A program made the translations under genes and the position numbers. Of a DNA stretch of 51,401 nucleotides, positions 44,171 through 48,167 are shown piece by piece; the first letter of the stretch is position 1, and the number at the start of each line of letters is the position of its first letter. Source of the stretch: Candidatus Pacearchaeota archaeon (GTDB taxonomy: Archaea > Nanobdellota > Nanobdellia > Pacearchaeales > GW2011-AR1); the NCBI GenBank assembly GCA_018303925.1, contig JAGVXF010000011.1, positions 10,563 to 61,963 on the forward strand, given 5' to 3'. The notes below the pieces were generated by a model, which was given only the letters and a program-made list of their open reading frames with translations, was not told the DNA's origin and did not search any database.

Positions 44171-44512
44171 TTAAATCTTAAGTTTTATCACAATTTCATT
44201 AACAACAATTTTAGGTCTGTGCCTTATTCTTCCGTTTACTTTTTCCTTTATTAACTCTATAAAACCAAATCTTTCAAGGAGTTTTATGTCATCAGTTAGA
44301 GCCTTAAAAGGGCGACCTAAAAGCTTTGAAAGGTTATAAATTGAAGAGGGGTTCTTGTATTTTATAGTGTCAAGAACTTTTGCTTTTTCTTTTGAAAGTA
44401 TTTGCCTTAATGAAGAAAGCCCGTCAAAGTCGTACTTTTCTTTTCCCTTAAGGAATTTGAAAGTTCCCCCTGATTCTCTTATTGAAACTTCTCTTATTTT
44501 TGTCTTTGCCAT
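44171..44512 (-). CDS. Winged-helix transcriptional regulator
   Basis: KNPSSIYNLSKLLGRPFKALTDDIKLLERFGFIELIKEKVNGRIRHRP. Confidence 0.7.
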   Translation of the reverse strand: MAKTKIREVSIRESGGTFKFLKGKEKYDFDGLSSLRQILSKEKAKVLDTIKYKNPSSIYNLSKLLGRPFKALTDDIKLLERFGFIELIKEKVNGRIRHRPKIVVNEIVIKLKI

Positions 44513-44543: not shown

Positions 44544-44885
44544 CTATTTTTTTCCATTTAGAATTTCTTTTATTTGCTTTTTCAAAATGGGAATATCTTT
44601 TTTTACTATATTCCAAACAATTCCCAAATCCACATTAAAGTATGCATGAATTATCCTATCTCTTGTTCCGGATATTTTCGCCCATTCAACTTTCGGATAT
44701 CTTTTTTTTATCTCTTTTGAAACATTTTTTGCTGCTTCACCAATTATTTCAAGCCTTCTTATAATTGCATCCTTAATATCTTTATTCTTCCTAAATTCTT
44801 CTTCATATAAATTTGATAATGAGCCCTCTATATCATTTATCGCATCAAGGATGTGCTTTAAGTAAGGAATATCTTGGTATTTCAT
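44544..44885 (-). CDS. hepT: HepT-family toxin
   Basis: DAIIRRLEIIGEAAKNVS...RDRIIHAYFNVD; R-X4-H-X-Y motif. Confidence 0.88.
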   Translation of the reverse strand: MKYQDIPYLKHILDAINDIEGSLSNLYEEEFRKNKDIKDAIIRRLEIIGEAAKNVSKEIKKRYPKVEWAKISGTRDRIIHAYFNVDLGIVWNIVKKDIPILKKQIKEILNGKK

Positions 44886-45172
44886 ATTATCCTTATCTCA
44901 TCTCCCAAAATATACTTTTTCAGGTAAGGATGAACAGACCTATATGTCAGCAAATCCACTTTTTTTCCCAACCTTTTCTCAAGTTCTAAAATTACCCCAA
45001 AAAATGCAATTCCCATGTCTTTAGGAGGCTCTATAATTATATCAACATCACTTCCTCTTTTTTGCTCCCCCCTTGCATAAGAGCCAAAAATCCCCGCTTT
45101 TTTGATATTGTTTTTTCTAAGTATAGGAACAATTCTCTTCTTTATTTCATTAATTTCTTTTTCTTTTCTCAT
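44882..45172 (-). CDS. mntA: MntA-like nucleotidyltransferase antitoxin
   Basis: GIFGSYARGEQKRGSDVDIIIE. Confidence 0.88.
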   Translation of the reverse strand: MRKEKEINEIKKRIVPILRKNNIKKAGIFGSYARGEQKRGSDVDIIIEPPKDMGIAFFGVILELEKRLGKKVDLLTYRSVHPYLKKYILGDEIRII

Positions 45173-45365: not shown

Positions 45366-45405
45366 TTTTATAAAAGGACAGCGTAAGGTTTTTAAATAAA
45401 ACCTT
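45366..45405 (+). promoter_or_regulatory. TATA-like box (ttttataaaa, 45366-45375) and perfect inverted repeat AAGGTTTT-taaat-AAAACCTT (45385-45405)
   Basis: Direct reading; about 25 nt downstream of the TATA-like box falls in the inverted repeat. Confidence 0.55.
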
Positions 45406-45422
45406 AAAAAATAGGGGTCTTT

Positions 45423-45557
45423 ATGCCAAAACCGAAAGTTTTGTTCCAAAGCTTTTTAAAGAAAAATCGGCTTTCCATGTTACACTCAATTGAGGGTGGT
45501 CTTATAGGGGATAAGCCAAAGCATACGCGAAAAGACGAATGCACGGCATACCTATAA
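45423..45557 (+). CDS. Small ORF in S-layer leader (44 aa)
   Basis: MPKPKVLFQSFLKKNRLSMLHSIEGGLIGDKPKHTRKDECTAYL*. Confidence 0.3.
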   Translation: MPKPKVLFQSFLKKNRLSMLHSIEGGLIGDKPKHTRKDECTAYL

Positions 45558-45643
45558 GTTAAGCTAAAGAGTTCCCCTATAGCTTTTTAGCGAAAACTTC
45601 GGGCCGCTTCGCGGCTTAAAAAGAGGGTGAGGAAAATCACCTT
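45501..45643 (+). ncRNA. Structured 5' leader RNA of the S-layer gene
   Basis: 501-508/551-558 (8 bp) competing with 503-511/573-581 (9 bp); three-way junction 583-589/617-623 with hairpins 591-601 and 603-615; hairpin 624-643 (all 45xxx). Confidence 0.55.
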
Positions 45644-45680
45644 CCAATAGAGGTACAAAGGAGGACAAAAAAACGAAAAA

Positions 45681-48167
45681 ATGAAATTTAATTTCAAAAA
45701 AATATCAGCGGTTCTTAGCTCAGTTATAATGACTGGTGCTACTTTAGGATTTGCTGCTGCTGCTAACTTTCCGGCTCCATTTGTAACAAGCGGAGTAGGA
45801 AATGTTGCTATTGTTTACGGTACTGGCGCAGGAATTTCTGCTTTGGACCAAGTTCAGGCAGGAAACATCCAGACAGCTTTGTCTAGCTATGTTACTGGTG
45901 GAACAACAACGATTGATGGAGAGTCTTTCAAATTTGAGAAAACTTCAACCAAATTTCACTTAGGTGATAATATAACGGGGGTTGTTTCTTCAAGCTTGGA
46001 TGATGATGAGTTACCAACTCTTTTGGCGAGTGGAAAATACATCGATGATGATAATGATGAGATTGATTATTCTCAAAAAATTGACATTGGTGCTGCCAAT
46101 CAATTAAGCATGTTTGAAAACAATGACTATGTAGCAGATCAGCCAACTGTTGGATTTATGATTCCTTCAAGCCAAAATGTATTAACTTACACTTTGACTT
46201 TTGAAGATTCACTTTTGATAACAGATATGCCTACAACCGATTTACCTTTAATGGGTAAAAGTTATTATGTATTGTCAAACACTTCAACAACATTAACGTT
46301 GTTGGATTCTGCTGCCTCTACAACTATTGTTGCGGGGGAAACAAAAACATTGACAGTGGGTTCTAAAACCTATACTGTTAGTGCAAGTATTTTTGACACT
46401 GCAAATAGCAAGGTTAAACTGGAAATAAATGGAGAAACTACAAATCTATTAGCAGCTACAGAAACTCAAAAACTTTCTGATGGCGCTTACGTAGGAGTTA
46501 AAGAAGTAGTTGTTCAAAATTTCCAGGGAGGGCAAAACCAAGTAGAATTTAGCATTGGTAGTGGTAAATTAAAAATTACAGATAGTTCAGATGTACAAAT
46601 CAACGATGAATCAATTTCGGGTTTGGTGGGTACAATCACTGACTCTGCTAACGTAATTACCAGTATTGCTCTTGCTTGGGCTGCAGATGAAGATTTATTC
46701 ATCGCAGAAGACAACGCAATAACTATGCCCGGATTCGGGGCAGTTAGTTTATCTTATGGAGGGTTAACTTATCCTTTTGAAGAGATTGTTCAAGTTCAAC
46801 AAGGTGGAGACACTTATGCTACACTTGAGAATTTCCCATTGAAAGATGGTCCAGTGGATATTAATATCCTATATGGAGATAGCGTAAGCTTCACAGGAAT
46901 TGGTAAAGACTCAGACAATTTACTGTTGGTTAGGCCCCCTTCAGATGAGGGAGTAACTACAGGAAACGCAACTAAATTTGACCAGGATGAGCATGATTAT
47001 ATGGTTGTTTCATGGAGTGATGGCAGTGATGCTGAATCATATCTAGTAAGATTTAACAATTTCGTCTTGGATGGTTCAACCAACGAGACAGATATTCAAT
47101 ATTACTCAGATGGTGGTTGGGTAACTAAGAAGGCCGGAGCTAAAGACTCTGACACGGTTACCTTAGGTAATGCTGACATACAAATACATAATATTACCAG
47201 AACACAACATTCTGTTGATATAATGAACAATTCAGCAAATACAAACTTCAACAAACTTTATTCAAAAGAAGGATTGACAGTTTGGTTGCCTTGGCAGAAT
47301 ACTACTGCTGTAACACAAACTAATGGTACAGGTTATGCCACACACGCTGCGGCGTGTACTGCATTTAATGCAGCTAAACTTTGGAGTGTTGGGGAAGTTT
47401 ATACAGGAACTGTAACTTTCAATTTAAGTGCTGCTGTAACTAGTGCCGGAGTAGTTGGAACAGCTTCCAATTGTACGACTTCTGTAGTTCTACAAACTAA
47501 AGAAGAGGATGAGAACGGAAACAAAGGAAGTTCAACATCTCCTGGAGACACAGTTAATGTGACTCTTGGATGGGATAGTTCAACAACTCCAGAAGTGGAG
47601 GTAAGTAGTGTTGCTACAAGTAACGCAGATGCTACATCTACTGAGATATTAGAAACAGACGTATGGAGAGACTTCACTTACTCTGCTCTTGCTACTGAAA
47701 TCTTGTATGACAAGCCAACTTCAGGACAGGACAGTGTGAAGTTGATATATCACGGCGACGAAGTTGCTGCTGATGTATTCATCTCAGAAGCTGATGCTGT
47801 AATCTCAAGTGGAGGTGCTCTTGGCGATGTTCTAGTAACAGACGCTGAGGTAGCTAGTGTTTCAGGCAAAAACTTAGTGATTGTTGGTGGTAGTTGTATT
47901 AACTCAGCTGCTGCTAGCGCATTGGGTCTTGCTGGGCACACATGTAGTGAAGCATTCACTGCTGCTACTGGTGTTGGTGCAGGAGAATTCCTTATTAAAG
48001 GAGTTCAAAATTCTGCTCTGGCTCCGGGTAAGCTAGCACTTGTTGTTGCTGGTTACGAAGCTGCTGATACAGTTAACGCTGCAACTTACTTGACTATGAA
48101 GCCAGTTGATACTTCAAAGACTTACATAGGAACTTCTTCAACAGAAGCTACTTTACAGGTTGCTTAA
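45681..48167 (+). CDS. S-layer protein
   Basis: Signal peptide; FPAPFVTSGVGNVAIVYGTGAGISALDQVQAGNIQTALSSY and C-terminal KLALVVAGYEAADTVNAATYL; strong GGAGG at 45660-45664. Confidence 0.88.
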   Translation: MKFNFKKISAVLSSVIMTGATLGFAAAANFPAPFVTSGVGNVAIVYGTGAGISALDQVQAGNIQTALSSYVTGGTTTIDGESFKFEKTSTKFHLGDNITGVVSSSLDDDELPTLLASGKYIDDDNDEIDYSQKIDIGAANQLSMFENNDYVADQPTVGFMIPSSQNVLTYTLTFEDSLLITDMPTTDLPLMGKSYYVLSNTSTTLTLLDSAASTTIVAGETKTLTVGSKTYTVSASIFDTANSKVKLEINGETTNLLAATETQKLSDGAYVGVKEVVVQNFQGGQNQVEFSIGSGKLKITDSSDVQINDESISGLVGTITDSANVITSIALAWAADEDLFIAEDNAITMPGFGAVSLSYGGLTYPFEEIVQVQQGGDTYATLENFPLKDGPVDINILYGDSVSFTGIGKDSDNLLLVRPPSDEGVTTGNATKFDQDEHDYMVVSWSDGSDAESYLVRFNNFVLDGSTNETDIQYYSDGGWVTKKAGAKDSDTVTLGNADIQIHNITRTQHSVDIMNNSANTNFNKLYSKEGLTVWLPWQNTTAVTQTNGTGYATHAAACTAFNAAKLWSVGEVYTGTVTFNLSAAVTSAGVVGTASNCTTSVVLQTKEEDENGNKGSSTSPGDTVNVTLGWDSSTTPEVEVSSVATSNADATSTEILETDVWRDFTYSALATEILYDKPTSGQDSVKLIYHGDEVAADVFISEADAVISSGGALGDVLVTDAEVASVSGKNLVIVGGSCINSAAASALGLAGHTCSEAFTAATGVGAGEFLIKGVQNSALAPGKLALVVAGYEAADTVNAATYLTMKPVDTSKTYIGTSSTEATLQVA

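Follow-up and report, generated by a model that had tools for sequence, protein, structure and literature searches.

The S-layer mRNAs of Methanosarcina carry conserved leaders of 154–159 nt with predicted structures and no known role (PMC3361143). The leader of slmA1 resembles the one analysed here in preceding an archaeal S-layer gene, in its TATA box, in being conserved and structured and in its association with very high expression (presumed for the present gene), but it belongs to another archaeal lineage, its conservation was seen among a few Methanosarcina, and the two are likened by description rather than by sequence; the portion of the text available to us reports neither a covariation-supported structure nor a kissing pair (PMC3361143). 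In bacteria, the slpA leader of Lactobacillus acidophilus is thought to protect its mRNA (cited in PMC6482533). It shares with the present locus an S-layer mRNA leader proposed to act against decay and two promoters, and differs in being bacterial, in consisting of one large predicted stem-loop and in having no known shared sequence (PMC6482533). By gene context, the nearest described RNA motif is the SLH motif, a candidate riboswitch and structured 5′ leader of unproven function that precedes surface-layer-homology genes in Synergistaceae and Firmicutes; its targets are SLH-domain proteins and not the archaeal S-layer, and we set it apart by description (PMC6429828). The leader analysed here has no Rfam match at the gathering score or at E values up to 1, and our search of the literature on archaeal structured RNAs found nothing describing this leader, nor any cis-acting RNA element of this lineage. 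To our knowledge, few cis-acting RNA elements have been documented in archaea.

The locus lies in a 51 401-nucleotide stretch (the window) of a 636 kb genome in 25 contigs from a Candidatus Pacearchaeota archaeon. The gene downstream of the leader (45681–48167, + strand) encodes a protein of 828 amino acids with an N-terminal signal-like sequence. Homologues are present in 109 of 142 relatives, and most of the named records that contain them are assemblies of Candidatus Pacearchaeota and Nanoarchaeota (DPANN). The window protein itself matches no Pfam or NCBIfam family, PF05124 (S_layer_C) included, but six of ten aligned homologues match PF05124 (best E value 2.9e-10), and membership of the archaeal S-layer family is thus supported by homology. 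We took the identity from PF05124 because the structural route was uninformative: the AlphaFold model is strand-rich with a mean pLDDT of 66, too uncertain for a fold search, and its Foldseek matches were meaningless. S-layer genes of the same type also occur in records named Ectothiorhodospiraceae and Methanohalobium (loci L118 and L114), which are probably mis-binned archaeal contigs; both of the strands discussed below, AUAGGG and CCCUAU, occur in the L118 leader as well. Adjoining the S-layer promoter on the − strand is a pair typical of toxin–antitoxin systems, a HepT-like ribonuclease and an MNT-like nucleotidyltransferase (44544–45172), and the same strand encodes a small protein (44171–44512) that is probably DNA-binding, as judged from its HVO_A0114 family match and a weak MarR-like match. 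The only Rfam matches in the window at the gathering score are two tRNAs, one of which (1812–1904) is 93 bases long and possibly contains an intron.

Two TATA boxes (TTTTTAAA) precede the leader on the + strand, a distal one at 45389–45396 and a proximal one (AAGCTTTTTAAAG) at 45453–45460, with the former starting exactly 64 bp before the latter. The proximal box is conserved in relatives and is most likely to be the promoter of the leader RNA. Archaeal transcription usually starts about 25 nt from the TATA centre, and across 51 leaders the first base of the hairpin H1 (see below) and the midpoint of the proximal box are separated by a median of 25 nt; we therefore predict that the RNA starts near 45480 (45478–45482, + strand). 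This would give a leader of about 200 nt, instead of the 280 nt originally estimated, and place the start at H1, upstream of the whole structure; a start downstream of 45600 had been named beforehand as evidence against a regulatory leader. In 71 of 84 S-layer promoters, irrespective of leader type, the two TATA boxes have a start-to-start spacing of 62–65 bp, with 64 and 63 bp being the commonest values, and all 49 spacings compared agree to within 3 bp. Although the intervening sequence varies, the boxes stay about six turns of the helix apart, a pattern suggestive of paired promoters or of a factor that acts at a set phase. Upstream of the distal box is a conserved TGTATTAAT..AGTGACA element. 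An inverted repeat AAAACC...GGTTTT directly follows the distal box (45397–45440 in the window) in some relatives and is perfect in G044 and G117; it was weighed as an operator, and exceeds shuffled sequence at p ≤ 0.05 in only 18 of 71 loci. A short open reading frame (45423–45557, 44 codons) was considered as an attenuating leader peptide and rejected, as its ATG and frame differ in relatives.

From 5′ to 3′, the alignment shows the TATA-like AAGCTTTTTAAAG and the hairpin ACACTC..GAGGGTG, followed by TCTTATAGGG and a variable stretch; next come a hairpin whose loop contains CCCCTATA, a further hairpin and finally the ribosome site. All of the structural features described here are on the + strand. 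The 5′-terminal hairpin H1 (ACACTC-AATT-GAG(G)GTG, 45482–45499) shows compensatory changes in all five of its pairs over 54 sequences. It is followed by the strand AUAGGGG (45504–45510), which may locally be held in the loop of a small 4 bp hairpin formed by CTTA (45501–45504) and TAAG (45512–45515). H3 is an 11 bp hairpin (45563–45573/45581–45591) with a predicted pair probability of 0.98 and compensatory changes in 12 of 12 model pairs; its 7 nt loop, CCCCUAU (45574–45580), contributes the 3′ strand to the kissing contact described below. H4 (45603–45615) has compensatory changes in five of six pairs and is paired in 99.3% of cells. Its form in the window, GCCGC-UUC-GCGGC, had been correctly singled out in the preliminary description and is the local version of a conserved hairpin that reads GUUGUC-AUA-GACAAC in most genera. 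A further hairpin, AGGGTGA-ggaaaa-TCACCTT (45624–45643), is likewise well predicted here (probability 0.95), but lies outside the conserved core as a variable add-on that differs among relatives or is missing from them (G166, G117 and G140 lack it). The previously noted Shine–Dalgarno sequence, GGAGG at 45660–45664, is confirmed, with an unpaired probability of 0.82 in the predicted fold; it is separated from the ATG (45681) by a 16 nt spacer that is unusually long, and similarly so in many family members. In this sequence some 45 nt separate the end of the conserved domain from the ribosome-binding site. The leader is more structured than its dinucleotide shuffles: the folding z score is −3.6 for 265 nt (45416–45680) and −4.2 for 166 nt (45495–45660), and none of 200 shuffles folded as well.

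A DNA search within the family gave same-genus leaders at 74–77% identity; 88 S-layer leaders were collected. An initial alignment of 22 of these, none from the genus of the window, was made with MAFFT without structural information. These 22 had been chosen for having ATAGGG and CCCTAT close together, so that the invariance of both strands is partly by choice, while H1, H3 and H4 were unselected. Run on these aligned sequences, RNAalifold proposed both H4 and the AUAGGG:CCCUAU pairing unprompted. For H1, H3, H4 and the pseudoknot together, compensatory changes were found in 15 of 29 pairs, none of 500 shuffles reached any of five measures, and sliding the strands reduced pairing from 90% to 39–50%. 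A covariance model built from the same other-genus leaders had as its best match in the window the leader itself (45477–45633, E value 0.005, 22 bits); a search of the same whole genome with stricter filters did not report it, and four same-genus genomes were matched with E values of 4e-7 to 3e-4. At E ≤ 0.01 the model matches 67 of 187 genomes of the family, representing 44 of 87 genera. Three more genomes were matched in the order outside the family, and a search of 383 genomes in the class added only one from beyond the order. This genome (G396, locus L155), placed in a different family of the class, has both the leader and an S-layer gene, through transfer or mis-binning.

We inspected 26 non-seed matches: 23 of them are directly followed by an S-layer homologue, and the other three are the weakest matches. 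The element is restricted to S-layer genes, as a rule with one copy per genome. At one locus (L162, G127:C24) an H4-like hairpin and GAAAGGAGG precede the gene of another secreted protein, which may be a second target. Over 54 aligned matches, compensatory changes occur in 22 of 23 nested pairs; with the pseudoknot included there are 198 compensatory cells compared with 46.8 expected from shuffles, and 94% of cells are paired compared with 39–47% when the strands are slid. As this alignment was fitted to the model, the 22-leader MAFFT alignment is the less biased of the two. G–U mispairs outnumber A–C mispairs on the + strand (53 versus 10), as expected for an RNA of that strand. Comparative sequence analysis thus shows the leader to be a structured RNA conserved across dozens of related genera, and the compensatory changes in homologues that had been proposed as a check are present. 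The sequences of H4 and of the UAGGG/CCCUA strands are kept more strictly than base pairing would require, a sign that a protein, a ligand or another RNA may read them.

Hairpin loops complementary to another loop or strand are familiar from ColE1 RNA I/RNA II and the lysine riboswitch; the contact here is intramolecular, lies in an archaeal mRNA leader and has no known ligand or trans partner. In the window, CCCCUAU (45574–45580) is fully complementary to AUAGGGG (45504–45510). The AUAGGG:CCCUAU core is family-wide, being near-invariant and paired in 99% of cells over the 54 sequences. Because the strands vary so little, support for the pairing was drawn from their co-occurrence, from double changes and from a different scaffold. 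Of 87 leaders, 50 have both strands, 29 have neither and 8 have just one of the two (Fisher p of about 1e-14, uncorrected for relatedness). Double changes that keep the pairing are found in G061 (CATGGGG:CCCCATG) and G025 (GUGGGG:CCCCAC), with G–U intermediates in four other genomes (G001, G003, G064 and G117), and leaders with another scaffold, of the CTGGCCAG type (five genomes: G012, G018, G015, G188 and G060), keep the same two strands. We conclude from these sequence comparisons that AUAGGG pairs with CCCUAU, forming either a pseudoknot or a kissing contact. The upstream strand lies, in many genera, inside a small hairpin (TTCTA-ATAGGG..-TAGAA), making a kissing loop likely there, whereas in others it is seemingly single-stranded, which would make the contact an ordinary pseudoknot. 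About a third of the collected S-layer leaders (29/87) do not have the pair, which is thus not indispensable.

The preliminary description had proposed two mutually exclusive helices, CTTATAGG (45501–45508) with CCTATAAG (45551–45558) and TATAGGGGA (45503–45511) with TCCCCTATA (45573–45581). Both are perfect and they do overlap; all of the strings that it quoted occur in the window where it placed them. The second, however, is the loop-to-upstream contact described above: since CCCCUAU is the H3 hairpin loop, this pairing is a pseudoknot or kissing contact and not a plain alternative helix. The first encloses a genus-specific hairpin and is essentially limited to the genus, where it or one-side variants of it are found in 9/9 leaders tested, with 8–9 pairs; in other genera the best competing helix is no better than in shuffles, with the exception of a weaker version in G070. 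The enclosed hairpin varies in a paired way among relatives. Within the alternative helix the changes are mostly of the G–U type, making selection for this helix plausible. Its formation excludes the kissing contact. The single-sequence fold gives it a probability of 0.67, in a calculation that cannot include pseudoknots. From these patterns, a two-state switch is a possibility at the level of the genus; the `switch-like' label is only partly supported, as elsewhere just the pseudoknot or kissing pairing is kept and these leaders show no anti-Shine–Dalgarno output (0/42).

The ribosome site was analysed in 42 leaders of the kissing type. Its openness is 0.55, compared with 0.48 when the upstream sequence is shuffled (slightly more open), and none of the 42 shows anti-Shine–Dalgarno complementarity at p ≤ 0.05; sequestration of the ribosome site was rejected for this type on both grounds. 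The open site and the lack of an anti-Shine–Dalgarno partner argue against a translational off-switch and favour a constitutive role. No U-tract terminator was seen by eye in the conserved core of other genera, so that neither form of riboswitch-type expression platform, a sequestered ribosome site or a terminator, was seen. A third type of leader (`type C'), which has no kissing pair, is found upstream of the start codon at 12 loci (L058, L099, L068, L074, L089, L064, L059, L100, L096, L098, L062 and L076) in 12 genomes (G041, G057, G063, G046, G048, G073, G027, G054, G026, G067, G053 and G051). It contains CUUCCU-like strands complementary to the ribosome site (5/12 at p ≤ 0.05) and two further hairpins and, judging from this complementarity, may be a true translational switch.

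The best explanation of these observations, to which we assign a probability of about 0.5, is that the element acts in cis as a structured 5′ leader of the S-layer mRNA, protecting the 5′ end and keeping translation high. Protection and translational support fit the hairpin at +1, the compact domain before the ribosome site and the restriction to one presumably very highly expressed gene. Points against it are the conservation of the kissing strands and H4 beyond what base pairing requires, the third of the collected leaders that have no kissing pair and the probability of 0.67 for the alternative helix in the single-sequence fold. The preliminary description had called the element a regulatory or stabilising leader of no recognised riboswitch class, and structure, covariation, gene specificity and the Rfam result bear this out, with the choice of function being our interpretation. 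A tentative alternative is a regulatory leader with two states, either riboswitch-like or under protein control, whose kissing contact and alternative helix exchange on a signal and so alter S-layer expression. The overlapping perfect helices in every same-genus leader, the near-invariant loop sequences over 54 sequences and the location of the bacterial SLH candidate riboswitch, which also precedes surface-layer genes (PMC6429828), are all consistent with it, but the alternative helix is essentially absent outside the genus, there is no anti-Shine–Dalgarno partner (0/42), no U-tract terminator was seen in the conserved core of other genera, and the single target gene does not point to any ligand. 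It seems rather improbable that the leader serves mainly as a platform for a protein, such as a ribosomal protein, the S-layer precursor or an RNase-blocking factor, with feedback on S-layer synthesis: conservation of H4 and UAGGG/CCCUA beyond structural demand and the confinement to S-layer genes, usually one per genome, would suit such a platform, while no candidate partner was found and no known leader family in Rfam is matched.

Two further readings carry very little weight. Conservation is strong in the promoter region upstream, where the two TATA boxes have a fixed spacing, and the whole element might be read as conserved DNA, a promoter or recombination site whose folding is incidental; we consider this highly improbable, as the compensatory changes are far above shuffles, G–U exceeds A–C and the element is located between the promoter and the start codon. 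We rejected conservation as DNA only on the covariation together with the G–U bias. Least credible is the three-way junction with exclusive long-range helices as first drawn. Its strings are complementary in the window sequence taken alone, but the closing stem CTTTTTA/TAAAAAG (45583–45589/45617–45623) has a probability of 0.0002, against 0.98 for H3, whose 3′ arm includes the 5′ strand of that stem, and TAAAAAG is not kept in relatives, whereas all H3 pairs covary.

For the protective leader, the sequence of events would be as follows. Transcription from the proximal promoter, about 25 nt after the TATA centre, would yield a transcript that begins with H1. As covariation shows, AUAGGG then pairs with the H3 loop and, with H4, forms a compact domain upstream of the ribosome-binding site, while the Shine–Dalgarno sequence is computed to stay open. 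The domain probably shields the 5′ end and the untranslated region of a presumably very abundant mRNA from decay, and a ribosome site kept clear would allow high and steady synthesis of the coat protein. In the genus of the window, competition between the kissing contact and the additional helix could possibly give a two-state element. A bolder proposal, which we regard as speculative, is that the leader represents a novel class of regulatory RNA in archaea, a sensor built on a kissing loop, with two folds at least in this genus, that would tune coat synthesis to a signal from the cell or host in a presumed symbiotic archaeon, coupled to the promoter pair about 64 bp apart. The definition of the leader rests on strong covariation across at least 44 genera, and the S-layer transcript is probably among the most abundant mRNAs of the cell. 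The kissing pair, H1 and the paired TATA boxes offer a testable handle on the mass production of the coat, and perhaps on its adjustment, in minimal archaea.
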